This document shows, in pieces, positions 2-6,744 of a stretch of DNA of 6,744 nt. Each line of letters opens with the position of its first letter. Position 1 is the stretch's first letter. The DNA comes from Candidatus Bipolaricaulota bacterium (GTDB lineage Bacteria; Bipolaricaulota; Bipolaricaulia; UBA7950; UBA9294), in assembly GCA_030612565.1 (NCBI GenBank), contig JAUWNQ010000028.1, forward strand, positions 1-6,744, given 5' to 3'. The notes beneath the pieces were generated by a model. That model saw nothing but the letters and a program-made list of their open reading frames with translations. It had not been told where the DNA came from and made no database searches. The translations under genes were made by a program, and so were the position numbers.

Positions 2-415
2 ATGTTCAAGGACTTCGAAGCCAGTCTTAGTATCAAGCGGCTGGATGCGATCTTAGCTCAGTTGTGCTCGGAAAAGGTTCAGTTGAGGATGCCGAGATTT
101 GAACTCATCTCGGAGTTCTCCCTTGCGGACACCCTCGCTCAGCTTGGAATGCCCGATGCCTTCACGGGAGCCGCCGACTTCTCGGGGATGGACGGCACGC
201 ATGATCTGTTCATCGGCCACGTGGCGCACAAGGCTTACGTTGCGGTGAATGAGGAAGGAACCGAGGCCGCGGCGGCCACTGGTGTGTCGATGGAACTTTC
301 GATCCCACAGTACGAAATGATGCTGATCGACCGTCCCTTCATCTTCCTCATCCGCGCCATCGAGACAGGGACGATCCTGTTCATCGGGAGGGTGATGGAC
401 CCGAGTAGACGCTGA
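2..415 (+). CDS. Serpin family protease inhibitor, C-terminal part (5' end outside window)
   Basis: This is the last 137 residues of a serpin; the rest lies off the left edge. The ATG at position 2 aligns with an internal residue of the two complete serpins downstream, so it is not the true start. Serpins trap serine or cysteine proteases by a suicide mechanism in which the cleaved reactive loop inserts into beta-sheet A. Visible family landmarks are MPRF, LGMPDAF, ADFSGMDG, the hinge EEGTEAAAAT (residues 84-93) and the C-terminal DRPFIFLIR...GRVMDPS. The hinge has Thr at P14 and Ala at P12-P9, as expected for an inhibitory serpin. Counting 17 residues from P17 puts P1 at about Ser100; alignment on the SIP motif of alpha-1-antitrypsin favours Leu99 with Ser100 as P1'. 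The loop is one residue longer than in alpha-1-antitrypsin. Secretion cannot be judged because the N-terminus is missing. Family assignment is very secure; target specificity is inferred. Confidence 0.95.
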   Translation: MFKDFEASLSIKRLDAILAQLCSEKVQLRMPRFELISEFSLADTLAQLGMPDAFTGAADFSGMDGTHDLFIGHVAHKAYVAVNEEGTEAAAATGVSMELSIPQYEMMLIDRPFIFLIRAIETGTILFIGRVMDPSRR

Positions 416-613: not shown

Positions 614-621
614 AGAGGAGG
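614..621 (+). promoter_or_regulatory. Ribosome binding site that decides the start of the fusion gene
   Basis: AGAGGAGG lies at 614-621. The frame offers GTG at 621, ATG at 624, ATG at 630 and ATG at 633. The GTG overlaps the Shine-Dalgarno sequence and the ATG at 624 is only 2 bases away. The ATG at 630 has an 8-base spacer and is the best choice; 633 is an alternative. Confidence 0.7.
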
Positions 622-629
622 TGATGGGG

Positions 630-3600
630 ATGATGTGGAAGAGAAAGGCATTACGAGGAGTATCTCTGGCGCTGGGCATCCTTACTGTAGCCTGGCTAAC
701 GTTCCCAATTGTCATTGTCGCGCAGGAGGTCCCCGAGTGCACAATATGGGTGCAACCTGGCGAGTCCATTCAGAAAGCTATCGATCAGGCGCCGGAAGGT
801 GCGGTGATCTGTCTGAGTCCAGGAACCTATGAGGAGAATTTGGTCATCGAAAAGAGCCTCACACTGCGTGGAGAGGGAGAAAACCCAGATGAGGTGCGGA
901 TCACTGGAGCCATGGAGGATCATCCGGTGATTCAGATCGAAAGTGAACGAGAGATCGAGGTGGAGATCGAAAACCTCGCTATTTCCGACGCAAAGGGAAG
1001 ATCAGCCGATGGGATAAAGGTAGCTGGCAAAGTACGGGTCTTGATCAAGAACGTCTACATCTCTGACAACTGGTGGTATGGCCTTTCGGTAGGAGGTGAA
1101 GCTCGCCTGACCCTGATTGATTCGAGCGTCTCCCAGAACCACATCAGCGGCCTGTTGGTCGATGGTACAGGTCAAGTGGAGGTGCGCGACAGCCGTTTCG
1201 CGGACAACAAGGCATTCGGAGTCATCGTTATGTCTGGCGACGCCCAAATAAAGGGCACGAATAACGCGTTTCACGGCAATGGAGCCGATCTAGGCGGCTT
1301 TGCCTCTGCCAGCCTGAGAGCGCCCCTCGCCCTTCAGACTGACAGAGATCAACTCTCCGTTCCGGAGGATGTCGCAAGCCTCCAAGAGGCGATCGATGCC
1401 ATTGCGCCTGGAGGGACGATTACCATCTCTGCGGGAACTTTCACTGAGGGGGTCACCATCTGGAAGCCGGTGATGATCCAGGGCGCTGGTCCCAAAGAGA
1501 CGGTTCTAACGGCGCTTCCCGAGCGACACGTCGTAATCTCGATCCTTGCGGAAGCGGAACAGGTAACCCTCACGGGACTCACAGTCGCTGAAAGCGATGG
1601 GCAAGGTCTCGCCATCTACGGGCAGGACGTGGCTCTCCGAAATGTCCGGGTGATCGATAACGATCGCTGGGGGCTGTGGGCGGGAGGAACTGCAACCGTC
1701 TCCCTCCAGGGCTCCACAGTATCTTCAAACTGGGTCGGAGTTCTCATAGAGAGCTCGGCTCGGGTAGATATGACAGGCTGTACAGTGGATGGGAACAGGA
1801 CCGGCCTCGCAGCGGGAGGCTCCGCCCTGGTGGTTCTCCAGGATTCCACCATCTCCGCGAATGAGGATGGCCTGTGGGTGGGTTCATCGGCCCAGCTGAG
1901 CCTTCAGAACTGCACCGTCTCCGGAAACGGCGGTGATGGCCTCACAGTGGCAGGCTCGGCCCAGGTGACCCTCACAGGTTCGACCGTCTCCCACAACTGG
2001 TCAGACGGCCTGGAGGTCAGCGGTTCAGCACAGGTGACCATTATAGATTCAGTCATCTCTAGCAACTGGTGGAATGGCCTCGACGTGTGCGGCTCGCCTA
2101 ATGTGACGCTCACCGAGTGCGCCATCTCCGATAATGGCTATTCCGGGCTGGCGGTGAGGGAATCGGCTGAGATGACCGTAGGAAACTCCACCATCTCAGG
2201 AAACGAGTATGGCTTCGAGATCGACGACTCGGCTGTCGTGACCATCGTCGATTCAACCATCTGTGATAGCCTCTATGATGGTATCATAGTTAACCGCGCG
2301 GCTGAGTTGTCCCTCGTCGGTTCTACGATCTCCAATAATGAGTACGAGGGCCTCGAGGTTTGGGGCACGGCTACCGTAACGGTCCAAGACTGCCACTTCC
2401 TGAACAACGAGGGATTCGGGATCGTCGTCCGTTCCGGAGCGGTGCAGATATCCGGTACGAACAACGTGTTTCGCGGCAATGGAGCCGACCTGGGTGGCTT
2501 TGCTCCTGCCAGCCTGAGAGCGCCCGTCGTTCCCCAGTCAGACCGGGATCAACTCGCCGTTCCAGAGGACTATCCGCGCCTTCAAGAGGCGATCGACGCC
2601 ATCGTACCCGGAGGAACGATCACCGTCTCTGCGGGAACCTTTGTTGAAGGGGTCACCATCTGGAAATCGGTGATGATCAAAGGCGCTGGCCCTGACAAGA
2701 CGATCTTAAAAGGATTGCCCGACGGGAAAGTAATCGTTTTAGTGTTGGCAGAGGTAGAAAGAGTGCACCTTCAGGATCTGAAGATTGCCGGAAGTGAGCG
2801 GGATGGGCTTGTGGTCTATGGCAGCGATGTGACGCTTCAGAACGTCAAGGTTTGTGATAACAGGTGGGACGGTCTTGAGGTATGGGGTGGCGCTGAGGTG
2901 ACCGTCAGGGACTGTACCATGTCGGGCAATGCGGACGGCATCGACGTGCGGAACTCGGCCACCTTGATCCTCGAAAATTGCACCATTACCGATAACCGAA
3001 ACAACGGTCTCTTTGTGTTCGACTCCGCCGTGGTGGCCTTGGCCAACGCCACGATCTCGGGCAGCGCCTACGGCCTGGCGGTAGGAGGCTCGGCCCAGGT
3101 CGTCGCTCAAAGCATGACCATTTCCGATAGCGGATTTGACGGCGTCCGTGCAGACGACTCGGCGCAGCTAAGCCTTATCAATTGTACGATCTCGAACAAC
3201 GGTTCGGAAGGTGTCGACGTATCCGACGAGGCCCGGGTGACCGTCAAGGAGTGCAGTGTCTTTGACAACGGATCGGACGGCCTGGGAGTCTCCGGCTCAA
3301 GCCAGGTAAACGTCAAAAGCAGCCTGATTTCGGATAACGCTGGCAATGGAATAAACTGCAAAGAAGAGGCAGTGGTTCACATCCAGGACAGTCATATCCT
3401 GCGCAATGCAGGCTACGGAGTGAGCGCTCATCTGCCGGACTGCGTTGAGGATTACTACTCGTCGAGCTTGAAGTTTGCGGGTGAGGTCAGCGGCAGCGGC
3501 AACACTATCCCCGGCCCTGACGAGCCCGACGGCAACCAAAAAAGCGCTGTGTGCCCAGACTCGCTAAGCTTCTTACAGGAAGGAGCCGCGCGATCGGAGG

Positions 3601-4790
3601 GGGACCAGGTAACCACATCACAGGCAGCGGAAGCCAATTTGGCAGACCTGGTTACCGGAAATACAGCATTCGCGTTCAATCTGTATCAGAACCTTTCCCA
3701 GGAAGGCGGGAACCTCTTCTTCTCCCCGTACAGTATCTCGTTGGCCCTGGCGATGACCTATGCCGGTGCTCGAAGCACGACCGAGGAGCAGATGGCTGAG
3801 ACGCTCCATTTCACTAAGCTCGGACAAGACCGTCTCCACCCCGCGTTCAACGCCCTGGCACTAGAACTCGCCAGTCGGGGTGGAGTTCCTTCCCTCGCGA
3901 AAGAAACGGAAAAAGGGAAGCGTTTTCAGTTGAACATTGCCAACGCCCTATGGGGACAGGATGGCTACGGATTTCTTCCCGACTTCACCGCGCTCTTGGA
4001 GACGCGCTACAGTGCTGGTCTGCGCCTTGCTGACTTCATCAGTGCCCCCGAAGATGCTCGCCGTGATATCAACGACTGGGTCTACCGGAAAACGAGCGAA
4101 AAGATCGACAACCTGCTCCCTACAGGCTCGATTACCCCCCTGACACGGCTGGTACTCGCCAACGCGATCTACTTCAACGCGTCATGGCTTTCACCCTTTG
4201 AAAAGGAAGCTACTCAGAGTGGTTCCTTCCACCTACTAAACGGTGATCAGGTCACTGTGCCAATGATGAAGCAAGAACATGGTTTCCGCTATGCAAAAGG
4301 AGACGACTACCAAGCTATCGAACTCCCCTACTTTGGCGAGCAAGTTTCGATGCTAATTTTGCTTCCCGCTGCTAGTTCGTTCGAGAAATTCGACCGATCC
4401 CTGGACGCCAAGGAACTTGCGTTAATTATTGAGGGGTTGAAGTTCGAAACCGTTGATCTTACCATGCCCAAGTTCAGACTTACCTCGGAGTTCTCCCTTG
4501 CGGACACCCTAGCACAGCTTGGGATGCCGGACGCCTTTACGGGAGCCGCCGACTTCTCGGGGATGGACGGAACTCGTGATCTGTTCATCGGCCACGTGGC
4601 GCACAAGGCCTTTGTGTCGATCGACGAAGCCGGTACAGAAGCGACTGCGGCCACAGCGGTGGTCGTAGACTGGCGCGGCGTATCTCCGTCTCCGATCCCC
4701 GTCATCATCGACCGCCCGTTCATCTTCCTCATCCGCGACATCGAAACAGGGACCATCCTGTTCATCGGACGGGTGATGGATCCCAGTTGA
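630..4790 (+). CDS. Secreted parallel beta-helix / serpin fusion protein
   Basis: This gene encodes 1386 residues. Residues 1-31 form a signal peptide: basic KRK, a hydrophobic core and probable cleavage at IVA|QE. Three beta-helix modules follow. Each opens with a capping motif of the type QxAIDxxPxG...GT(F/Y)xExxxIxK (from about residues 38, 244 and 644), then runs into 22-24-residue coils of the type SAxVTLxxSTISxNxxDGLxVxG. The helix closes near residue 935, and a linker with two cysteines reaches a complete serpin domain (about 1003-1386). Serpin landmarks include NLFFSPYSISLALAMTYAGA, LVLANAIYFNASW, ELPY, MPKF, LGMPDAF and DRPFIFLIR. The hinge is EAGTEATAAT (1333-1342), and counting from P17 puts Arg1349 at P1, implying trypsin-like targets. 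The serpin domain has no cysteine, while the helix part has about 16. Beta-helices of this kind bind or cleave polysaccharides or act as adhesins; I see no known lyase active site, so a binding or display stalk is inferred. Serpin inhibitory function is well supported; the combined role is inference. Confidence 0.96.
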   Translation: MMWKRKALRGVSLALGILTVAWLTFPIVIVAQEVPECTIWVQPGESIQKAIDQAPEGAVICLSPGTYEENLVIEKSLTLRGEGENPDEVRITGAMEDHPVIQIESEREIEVEIENLAISDAKGRSADGIKVAGKVRVLIKNVYISDNWWYGLSVGGEARLTLIDSSVSQNHISGLLVDGTGQVEVRDSRFADNKAFGVIVMSGDAQIKGTNNAFHGNGADLGGFASASLRAPLALQTDRDQLSVPEDVASLQEAIDAIAPGGTITISAGTFTEGVTIWKPVMIQGAGPKETVLTALPERHVVISILAEAEQVTLTGLTVAESDGQGLAIYGQDVALRNVRVIDNDRWGLWAGGTATVSLQGSTVSSNWVGVLIESSARVDMTGCTVDGNRTGLAAGGSALVVLQDSTISANEDGLWVGSSAQLSLQNCTVSGNGGDGLTVAGSAQVTLTGSTVSHNWSDGLEVSGSAQVTIIDSVISSNWWNGLDVCGSPNVTLTECAISDNGYSGLAVRESAEMTVGNSTISGNEYGFEIDDSAVVTIVDSTICDSLYDGIIVNRAAELSLVGSTISNNEYEGLEVWGTATVTVQDCHFLNNEGFGIVVRSGAVQISGTNNVFRGNGADLGGFAPASLRAPVVPQSDRDQLAVPEDYPRLQEAIDAIVPGGTITVSAGTFVEGVTIWKSVMIKGAGPDKTILKGLPDGKVIVLVLAEVERVHLQDLKIAGSERDGLVVYGSDVTLQNVKVCDNRWDGLEVWGGAEVTVRDCTMSGNADGIDVRNSATLILENCTITDNRNNGLFVFDSAVVALANATISGSAYGLAVGGSAQVVAQSMTISDSGFDGVRADDSAQLSLINCTISNNGSEGVDVSDEARVTVKECSVFDNGSDGLGVSGSSQVNVKSSLISDNAGNGINCKEEAVVHIQDSHILRNAGYGVSAHLPDCVEDYYSSSLKFAGEVSGSGNTIPGPDEPDGNQKSAVCPDSLSFLQEGAARSEGDQVTTSQAAEANLADLVTGNTAFAFNLYQNLSQEGGNLFFSPYSISLALAMTYAGARSTTEEQMAETLHFTKLGQDRLHPAFNALALELASRGGVPSLAKETEKGKRFQLNIANALWGQDGYGFLPDFTALLETRYSAGLRLADFISAPEDARRDINDWVYRKTSEKIDNLLPTGSITPLTRLVLANAIYFNASWLSPFEKEATQSGSFHLLNGDQVTVPMMKQEHGFRYAKGDDYQAIELPYFGEQVSMLILLPAASSFEKFDRSLDAKELALIIEGLKFETVDLTMPKFRLTSEFSLADTLAQLGMPDAFTGAADFSGMDGTRDLFIGHVAHKAFVSIDEAGTEATAATAVVVDWRGVSPSPIPVIIDRPFIFLIRDIETGTILFIGRVMDPS
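1029..1238 (+). repeat. Beta-helix module 1 coils (3 repeats of 23-24 codons)
   Basis: Three in-frame degenerate coils start with KVRVLIK, EARLTLID and TGQVEVRD, each ending in a G-(L/V)-x-V turn. This is the shortest of the three solenoid modules. It follows the capping segment encoded from about 738 and ends with the NNAFHGNGADLGG closing motif near 1260-1300. Confidence 0.75.
1180..1700 (+). repeat. Large internal direct duplication, copy 1 (1200-base offset)
   Basis: This stretch matches 2380-2900 with a constant offset of exactly 1200 bases (400 codons) and no visible indel. Over 1384-1489 against 2584-2689, I count 17 mismatches in 106 bases, about 84% identity. It spans the end of one module (NNAFHGNGADLGGFA), the capping segment (VPED...LQEAIDAI.PGGTIT) and the first coils of the next. 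Similarity is strongest between about 1260 and 1500 and fades on both sides. Confidence 0.85.
1623..2438 (+). repeat. Beta-helix module 2 coil array (12 repeats of 66-72 bases)
   Basis: Twelve consecutive coils of 22, 23 or 24 codons cover these 816 bases exactly. They start at QDVALRN, then TATVSLQ, SARVDMT, SALVVLQ, SAQLSLQ, SAQVTLT, SAQVTII, SPNVTLT, SAEMTVG, SAVVTIV, AAELSLV and TATVTVQ. An Asn in the SxN turn recurs in most coils, typical of an asparagine ladder in right-handed parallel beta-helices (PbH1-type repeats). Confidence 0.85.
2380..2900 (+). repeat. Large internal direct duplication, copy 2 (1200-base offset)
   Basis: This is the partner of 1180-1700. It carries NNVFRGNGADLGGFA, then VPEDYPRLQEAIDAIVPGGT and the first coils of module 3. 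The two copies start a fresh capped solenoid each, so the protein grew by duplicating a whole module boundary and not only single coils. Confidence 0.85.
2823..3428 (+). repeat. Beta-helix module 3 coil array (9 repeats)
   Basis: Nine consecutive 21-23-codon coils start at SDVTLQN, GAEVTVR, SATLILE, SAVVALA, SAQVVAQ, SAQLSLI, EARVTVK, SSQVNVK and EAVVHIQ. The array is followed by a closing segment with SGSGNTIPGPDEPDGNQ that looks like the natural C-terminal end of a stand-alone beta-helix protein. Confidence 0.85.
3648..3882 (+). repeat. Near-identical serpin N-domain segment, copy in fusion gene
   Basis: These 235 bases match 5022-5256 without gaps. I count 12 mismatches, about 95% identity. 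The segment encodes LVTGNTAFAF through ELASRG (first helices and strand s6B). Similarity drops abruptly at the downstream edge, where the two genes have different insertions (GGVPSLAKETEKGK against GEDTGDTEETKEEE). Confidence 0.85.
4485..4615 (+). repeat. Serpin C-domain segment shared with the first serpin
   Basis: These 131 bases match 110-240 without gaps, with 12 mismatches by hand count (about 91%). They encode SEFSLADTLAQLGMPDAF through HVAHKAF. The corresponding part of the third serpin is clearly more different (NLKAPLTDLGMPDAFVFGTADF), so this segment groups the first two genes. Confidence 0.8.
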
Positions 4791-4862: not shown

Positions 4863-6164
4863 ATGACTTCACTAATCAAGAGATTCACCCTGGGTTTCAC
4901 TATCCTGATCGTGACGATAGGGGTGATCGGTCTTTGTTGGAACGTTTTAGCCACTAACGGAGATCAAAATCCATCGCAGGAAGAGACCACTCCTAATGTG
5001 GCAATAGCTGATCTGGGAGAACTGGTCACCGGAAATACAGCATTCGCGTTCGATCTGTATCAGAACCTTTCCAAGGAAGGCGAAAACCTCTTCTTCTCCC
5101 CGTACAGCATCTCGTTGGCCCTGGCGATGACCTATGCCGGTGCGCGAAGCACGACCGAGGAGCAGATGGCTGAGACGCTCCATTTCACCCCCCTCGGACA
5201 AGACCGTCTCCACCCCGCGTTCAACGCCCTGGCGCTAGAACTCGCCAGTCGGGGTGAAGATACGGGCGACACGGAAGAAACAAAAGAAGAGGAGCGGTTT
5301 CAGTTACACATCGTCAATGCGCTATGGGGACAGGATGGCTACGGATTCCTTCCCGATTTTCTCGATGTCATCGCCGAGAACTACGGCGCTGAGCTGACAC
5401 AGCTCGATTTCATGCGGCAGCCGGAAGCTGCAAGGCTCACCATCAACAACTGGGTGAGCGATAAGACCGACAAGAAGATCAAGGATCTGCTACCTCCAGG
5501 CTCAATCGCACCCGACACGATGCTCGTCCTCACCAGCGCGATCTACTTCAACGCGACCTGGGAGTACCGTTTCGATGAGCGCTTTACCCATGATGATCCA
5601 TTCACCCTACTCGATGGCAGTCAGGTTACTGTGCCGATGATGCAGCAGATCAGACAGTTCAAGTATGTTGAGGGTAAAGGGTATCAAGCGGTCGAGCTCC
5701 CCTACGTCGGCGACGAACTTTCGATGGTCATCTTGCTCCCTGCAGCCGACCGATTTGAGAAGTTTTCCCAAGAACTGAACGCTCAGCAGGTTCGTGACAT
5801 CCTGAATAACATGAAGGATACGGAAGAGATCCACCTATACATGCCAAAATTCGAGTACACCTCGGAGTTCAACCTGAAGGCACCCCTCACTGATCTCGGC
5901 ATGCCAGACGCCTTCGTATTTGGGACCGCGGATTTCTCGGGGATGGACGGAAGCCGGGAGCTCTTCATCGGTGCCGTCTTCCACAAGGCCTTTGTCTCAG
6001 TGGACGAGAATGGTACGGAGGCAGCAGCTGCAACCGCCGTAGATATGCCCTGTGCGCTGGCCACTGAGGTCAAGCTCGACCGCCCTTTCATCTTCCTCAT
6101 CCGCGACAGCGAAACCGGGACCATCCTGTTCATCGGGCGGGTGATGGACCCGAGCGAGAGCTGA
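4863..6164 (+). CDS. Secreted serpin family protease inhibitor
   Basis: This gene encodes 433 residues from the preferred start. Residues 1-30 form a signal peptide: MTSLIKRF, a long hydrophobic core and probable cleavage at VLA|TN. Cys25 precedes a Trp and lacks a good lipobox (IGLC), so a lipoprotein is less likely. A short polar linker leads into a full serpin domain (about 50-433). Landmarks include NLFFSPYSISLALAMTYAGA, INNWVSDKTDKKI (helix F), IYFNATW, ELPY, MPKF, LGMPDAF, ADFSGM and DRPFIFLIR. The hinge ENGTEAAAAT (382-391) is of the inhibitory type. Counting from P17 gives P1 at about Ala398, with Cys397 next to it; Cys397 is the only cysteine of the mature protein. It lies 72 bases after the fusion gene with no clear promoter between, so co-transcription is likely. 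It has an acidic Glu-rich insertion after ELASRG. Target proteases are unknown; extracytoplasmic protease inhibition is inferred from the family. Confidence 0.96.
   Translation: MTSLIKRFTLGFTILIVTIGVIGLCWNVLATNGDQNPSQEETTPNVAIADLGELVTGNTAFAFDLYQNLSKEGENLFFSPYSISLALAMTYAGARSTTEEQMAETLHFTPLGQDRLHPAFNALALELASRGEDTGDTEETKEEERFQLHIVNALWGQDGYGFLPDFLDVIAENYGAELTQLDFMRQPEAARLTINNWVSDKTDKKIKDLLPPGSIAPDTMLVLTSAIYFNATWEYRFDERFTHDDPFTLLDGSQVTVPMMQQIRQFKYVEGKGYQAVELPYVGDELSMVILLPAADRFEKFSQELNAQQVRDILNNMKDTEEIHLYMPKFEYTSEFNLKAPLTDLGMPDAFVFGTADFSGMDGSRELFIGAVFHKAFVSVDENGTEAAAATAVDMPCALATEVKLDRPFIFLIRDSETGTILFIGRVMDPSES
5022..5256 (+). repeat. Near-identical serpin N-domain segment, copy in third serpin
   Basis: This is the partner of 3648-3882, with 12 mismatches in 235 bases. 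The differences include both synonymous changes and a cluster at TK/TP after ETLHF. The identity is much higher than in the remainder of the two serpin genes. Confidence 0.85.
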
Positions 6165-6297: not shown

Positions 6298-6744
6298 CTA
6301 CCGGAGAAGTAGTAACGCGAAGATCACCACGGCGGCAGCAAGGACAATGAACGAGAGAGTGCGATCTGGAGGAGCAGGGGCGTCCGGGACTGCTTCCTCG
6401 TGATAGTCGAAGTCCCATCGCCACTCGGCCGTGCGAGGGCCTTCGAGTGTCGACACGGCAAGGCGTAGCGTCAACGAGAAATCCTCGTTTAGGCGCGCTC
6501 GTTGCAGCAACCTCGAATCGCAGACCGCCGCCGGGGGCAGAACAGGGCAGCCACGAAGAATCTTCCGAGATTCCGCCGGTAGAATCATCGTCGATTCATC
6601 TGCCTCGAACAGAACCTCCGGACGCACGATGTACCACTGTTGATCGCCGGGCAGCTGAAGAGAAGACTCGTCCCAGTCAATCGTGATCGCCTCGTCGATC
6701 ACATTCCACAACTCGAACTGCAGATCGAGCAGGCGGCCCATCGG
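6298..6744 (-). CDS. Unrecognised protein with C-terminal membrane anchor (5' end outside window)
   Basis: The stop codon lies at 6298-6300, and the frame stays open to the right edge; 147 residues from the first visible Met are shown. That Met (codon at 6739-6741) may be internal, since only one upstream codon is visible. The stretch FELWNVIDEAITIDWDESS followed by LPGDQQ has the alternating pattern of an immunoglobulin-like beta-sandwich. It recalls small bacterial surface lipoproteins of unknown function that carry an ITIDW-type strand; this is a memory-based impression. Two cysteines (GCPVLPPAAVCD) could form a disulfide. A Pro/Ala linker (PDAPAPPD) leads to a membrane segment (about 128-147) that ends the protein with a single Arg. 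The likely arrangement is an extracytoplasmic domain held by a C-terminal anchor. It converges on the serpin operon and is probably transcribed independently; no functional link can be shown. Confidence 0.7.
   Translation of the reverse strand, partial: PMGRLLDLQFELWNVIDEAITIDWDESSLQLPGDQQWYIVRPEVLFEADESTMILPAESRKILRGCPVLPPAAVCDSRLLQRARLNEDFSLTLRLAVSTLEGPRTAEWRWDFDYHEEAVPDAPAPPDRTLSFIVLAAAVVIFALLLLR

Follow-up and report, generated by a model that had tools for sequence, protein, structure and literature searches.

The window, a stretch of 6,744 nucleotides from a Candidatus Bipolaricaulota bacterium, encodes in one gene a signal-like peptide, a long parallel beta-helix and a complete serpin. 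This beta-helix/serpin architecture is real, conserved and made of known parts, and it is apparently undescribed, since no such family was found in the open-access literature (which misses most subscription papers), in line with the initial annotation, which knew of none. The frame is open without interruption from 621 to 4790 in a mechanical ORF scan, and ATG 630 is most likely the start codon, because a Shine-Dalgarno-like AGGAGG (616-621) lies 8 bases ahead of it (Table 1). Pfam assigned the protein to Beta_helix (PF13229; E 5e-114, 377.6 bits, seven stretches) and to Serpin (E 7.8e-113, profile positions 2-370 of 370), with the fused head a full-length member of PF00079 (377.9 bits against a cut-off of 27), and third-position GC is similar in the two parts of the gene (0.66 and 0.65). 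A protein search with residues 1000-1389, on long candidates only, found the same build in P0008, P0009 and P0027, which align end to end with the window protein at 83, 82 and 66% identity, junction included. A search with the beta-helix part led to the same four proteins (a fused serpin in 4 of 97 beta-helix relatives, window included), and these are all the fused proteins known; the searches with the serpin part, the beta-helix part and one further query scored the 7992, 7993 and 8000 candidates that shared most words. Because the whole architecture and its junction recur in three other proteins, the fusion is neither a chance event nor an assembly artefact, and an assembly join or frameshift at 3400-3700 is ruled out. 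The single frame joining all three parts, as first read from the letters, is thus borne out by the ORF, by Pfam and by these relatives. A viral or plasmid origin was rejected, as a search of IMG/VR with the fusion alignment gave no viral relative and plasmids and phages held no near DNA match to the window.

Table 1. Features of the window and what each assignment is based on (nucleotide positions; residue numbers are those of the fusion protein)
Feature	Position	Strand	Basis
Beta-helix/serpin fusion gene, 1386 aa (P0001)	630..4790	+	ORF scan, Pfam, Shine-Dalgarno-like motif
Signal-peptide-like N-terminus, residues 1-32, ending VIVAQ, without lipobox Cys	630..725	+	Sequence read by eye
Right-handed parallel beta-helix, three modules (residues about 33-243, 244-643, 644-928)	726..3413	+	Pfam, AlphaFold2, motif location
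Putative beta-helix C-terminal cap, residues 929-985, GSGNTIPGPDEPDGNQ...CPDSLSFLQE	3414..3584	+	Cap profile
Linker, residues 986-1008, about 23 residues	3585..3653	+	Alignment; low model confidence
Serpin domain, residues 1009-1386	3654..4787	+	Pfam; 8gxv (E 3.2e-81) as nearest solved structure
Hinge plus reactive centre loop, with Arg1349 (4674-4676) as proposed P1	4632..4709	+	Alignment to 8gxv
Stand-alone serpin, 433 aa, signal-like N-terminus; ATG 4863 behind AAAGGAGG; hinge at 6012	4863..6164	+	Pfam, sequence
Third serpin, C-terminal fragment truncated at the window edge; its hinge at 257	2..415	+	ORF, Pfam

The beta-helix part of the fusion spans about 950 residues, and its second and third modules start near a repeated QLxVPED...LQEAIDAI motif. 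The suggested structure prediction of the chain held for its first part, where AlphaFold2 gave a continuous beta-helix for residues 28-687 (mean pLDDT 95.1, 8 sequences), but not for the third module plus serpin (residues 638-1386), where the mean pLDDT was 57.7 and most of the serpin fell below 50. Foldseek neighbours of the rod were phage receptor-binding proteins or tailspikes, alginate epimerases and PL6 lyases, which would suit a rod that is itself an active polysaccharide enzyme or epimerase, the serpin only guarding against proteolysis as proposed for cellulosomal serpins. We regard this as highly improbable, given that the matches are weak and generic to the fold (query-normalised TM 0.11-0.38 and 8-16% identity among the 50 matches listed) and that the rod sequence is largely a near-regular tandem of coils, each of about 23 residues. 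An assignment to NosD copper maturation (TIGR04247) was rejected at 139.1 bits against a curated cut-off of 300, and by Pfam the fusion is no autotransporter passenger, its C-terminus being a serpin and not an outer-membrane beta-barrel. With a coil-turn pattern that was chosen after the sequence had been read, aromatic residues were counted at the turn in 12 of 20 window coils and 11 of 15 coils of P0027, and they make up 28% of turn residues in the window protein versus 4.8% overall (13% versus 5.4% in 71 other relatives). As a lead only, these turn aromatics may form a ligand-binding ladder or face.

The rod closes with a short cap, for which a profile matched 41 of 105 beta-helix relatives in its first round, 38 of the 41 no more than 40 residues from the C-terminus. 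By the third round the count had risen to 78 of the 105, of which 70 lay equally close to that end, with the widened rounds partly circular as they re-used the same sequence set (93 database proteins and 12 genome ORFs, some duplicated, e.g. P0149 and the L106 ORF). Judged from these profiles, the cap is the usual C-terminus of the beta-helix family, with the serpin placed directly after it; because the cap is usually C-terminal in the relatives, the serpin appears to be joined where such proteins normally end. Two relatives continue beyond the cap, P0187 with SurA-like/rotamase and TPR parts and P0186 with about 220 more residues.

The initial annotation had described the serpin as complete and apparently inhibitory, and both the full profile coverage and the hinge GTEATAAT (residues 1335-1342, from nucleotide 4632) agree with this. 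According to the accessible text of PMC8233489, the P17-P9 hinge of inhibitory serpins reads ExGTEAAAA (x = E, K or R), with small residues; EAGTEATAAT in the window is of this inhibitory type and departs from the strict motif at P16 (Ala) and P11 (Thr). The closest solved serpin by sequence is the bacterial chloropin of Chlorobium limicola (PDB 8GXV), a proven inhibitor for which the available portion of PMC10090351 gives thrombin and KLK7 as targets and DNA and heparin as cofactors. Chloropin shares the hinge type of the window head, and its P1 Arg aligns with Arg1349. However, it has Arg-Ser at P1-P1' where the window head has Arg-Gly, and its crystallised chain of 375 residues consists, as far as that text goes, of the serpin only, without a rod. 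We compared the loops of P0214-P0235, P0237-P0239 and the four fused heads. The hinge is conserved in all four fused heads, and all four also have basic residues near P1, although the exact P1 position is uncertain in P0008, P0009 and P0027 because their loops differ in length. Pro-Cys is found near P1 in 20 of 25 stand-alone relatives, including the window's own, and the stand-alone P0226 and P0232 share a basic loop with P0008 and P0009. The window of highest entropy falls in the reactive loop (1.65 versus a mean of 0.76), but a second region equals it, so the loop was rejected as the sole hypervariable part.

We consider it fairly probable that the fusion protein works as a suicide inhibitor of trypsin-like proteases that is tethered and whose head recombines. 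The protein would be secreted and probably held at the surface as a protease trap, with the beta-helix as a long rigid rod that might fix it to the cell surface or a glycan matrix. The C-terminal serpin would trap trypsin-like serine proteases, i.e. be cut after Arg1349, insert its loop and form a covalent complex. The rod would be retained, while the head would be renewed via recombination with stand-alone serpins, which would alter the reactive loop and with it the target; we infer that selection acts on specificity. Tethering by the rod is plausible, and the case for a surface-held protein is made by the rod, since Pfam found no dockerin in the fusion and reading by eye no lipobox; alternatively, the protein may be released.

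The fused heads do not form one clade but are mosaics with stand-alone serpins, the window neighbours included. Across modules 1 to 3, the rods of the window protein and P0008/P0009 are 85-94% identical, and the serpin heads of the same proteins 65-66%, with 10% in the loop. The rods of P0008 and P0009 share 84, 98 and 88% in modules 1-3, and as these values are uneven, the rods may recombine too. A tree was built from 65 serpins. On it the fused heads force four label changes, all four are united in 0% of the 200 bootstrap replicates, and the window head groups with the stand-alone P0235 (100/100). Through the trimming motif the tree lacks the full-length L108, L112, L113 and L119, 2 of 12 outside serpins and 3 of 4 multidomain serpins; P0236 (690 aa) and P0240 (truncated) were excluded by hand, and a tree of mosaic genes does not equal a history. 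Because some joins involve long branches, an AU test was run without P0027, L115, L117, L118 and L121; it rejected a single clade of the three remaining fused heads (p = 2.3e-11) and, weakly, a clade of the P0008 and P0009 heads (p 0.039). In a blockwise comparison, three consecutive blocks of 30 residues are identical between the P0009 head and the stand-alone P0232. The window head, starting with its fourth block, is nearest successively to P0216, P0220, P0235 and P0222. The fused and the downstream serpin of the window agree in 67 of 73 synonymous codons over the first part, in 71 of 141 over the middle and in 18 of 24 over the last part, and none of 10000 permutations, with codons treated as independent, gave as large a contrast between the first part and the rest. 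The left-edge fragment shares 87-95% identity with the fused head over the pair of 20-codon blocks that precede the hinge block, dropping to 68% for the hinge block itself and to 35% for the loop block. Sequence has thus been exchanged between heads and stand-alone serpins while the rod architecture persisted, which is solid. Equal lengths of the longest contig (11298 for P0008 and P0217, 6636 for P0009 and P0222) suggest that each of these pairs may lie on one contig. Neither the three serpin sequences of the window nor the recombinant heads had been remarked upon in the initial annotation, and the same applies to the trypsin-like proteases on the same beta-helix family considered below.

Among at least 46 GTDB loci, most of them weak matches, the top match to the fusion alignment was a Candidatus Bipolaricaulota contig (L001). 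Serpins occurred in 25 of 100 Bipolaricaulota genomes searched, none of them in an open frame longer than 619 aa, and the fusion model matched somewhere in 96 of 100, with six candidates scored per genome where more existed; the 3.7-Mb genome G049 had 78 first-look candidates (six scored) and perhaps a large beta-helix expansion. A genome scan with the downstream serpin of the window gave no matches. None of the Bipolaricaulota neighbourhoods fetched contained a serpin ORF fused to a beta-helix, with L110, L115 and L127 not judgeable because their serpin ORFs end at the contig edge; a TAG lies upstream of the L110 serpin ORF. Separate genes were found close together. In L117 a beta-helix gene precedes the serpin gene by about 100 bases, in L106/L001 by about 1 kb with an opposite-strand ORF between, and in L127 the two lie close by in reversed order; the separate beta-helix ORF of L001 carries the same C-terminal cap as the window rod. 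Such proximity, together with the shared cap, might point to neutral domain shuffling in which the stop between a beta-helix and a serpin gene was lost and the two parts have no joint function but act as two proteins, which cleavage within the linker perhaps sets apart. We find this decidedly unlikely, as all four proteins retain the fusion, at identities as low as 66%, with the linker and both parts in frame. The ORF between the two genes in L001 (12293-12673, minus strand) resembles a MazF/PemK-type toxin gene. At the right end of the window, a minus-strand ORF (6298-6744, at least 147 aa, open at the edge) has a hydrophobic C-terminal stretch and gave no hit in Pfam or NCBIfam at a threshold of 0.001.

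Related rods also carry proteases. A Trypsin_2/Trypsin domain is present in 10 of 97 beta-helix relatives (seven of the ten were scanned and confirmed), and at least three such proteins, L165, L166 and L167, lie in the Bipolaricaulota genomes G001, G049 and G088; a scan for this type gave matches in 96 of 100 genomes, but among the matches listed the PKD part by itself was nearly always responsible. These proteins and the metagenomic P0125 and P0147 have a beta-helix of the same family as the window, with a nearly identical cap in L167, but an N-terminal trypsin-like protease instead of a C-terminal serpin. It is therefore conceivable that the rod-borne serpin serves to restrain, or protect against, the bacteria's own rod-borne trypsin-like proteases by way of the alike scaffolds, and a basic P1 would suit such a target. 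G001 and G049 also hold serpins, but a co-occurrence of 2 in 3 genomes versus 25 in 100 overall is too small to carry meaning, and recombining loops better match shifting outside targets, so that we judge this explanation unlikely. A wider form of the tethered-inhibitor reading is bacterial warhead exchange, where exported rods would swap heads with tandem stand-alone serpin cassettes to yield a repertoire of surface-mounted traps that are matched by protease-bearing sibling rods; we offer it tentatively, as a possibility somewhat short of probable. Protease and inhibitor on related rods, probably within one phylum, make the question of the serpin target testable. Moreover, the fused serpins point to inhibitor-head recombination in bacteria. 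Recombination of this kind is also a mode of animal serpin clusters.

The initial annotation was right about a true fusion with an inhibitory-type hinge, but its premise that serpins are normally single-domain needs correction. Serpins with several domains are frequent among long proteins and not rare in themselves: a further Pfam family was present in 75 of the 120 serpin proteins listed of 133 found, window included, with partners such as ankyrin, LRR, RCC1, chagasin/META and histidine kinase, among others. As the search was confined to candidates of about 764 aa or more and shorter proteins lay outside it, these counts are not comparable with dockerin serpins. PinA is reportedly a dockerin-bearing serpin of cellulosomes. 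Like the window protein, cellulosomal serpins combine a serpin with a positioning module, and a protective role has been proposed for them in the accessible part of PMC5301203; however, their module is a dockerin, that of the window protein a beta-helix some 950 residues long. Prokaryotic serpins are described as relatively enigmatic in function (PMC8233489, available text), and the beta-helix/serpin family links one to a defined scaffold. The scanned P0088 (ankyrin-serpin, from Sedimentisphaerales), P0084 (LRR-serpin) and P0010 are likewise longer proteins that end in a serpin, but their N-terminal modules are unrelated to the rod. P0010 (chagasin-META-serpin), and by listing also P0037 (chagasin and serpin), combine two inhibitor classes per chain. 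Serpin is the sole family listed for P0002-P0007 (896-941 aa), and P0002, when scanned, had two serpin stretches in one chain. In the scanned P0104, a C-terminal serpin follows PAS, histidine kinase and response regulator domains.
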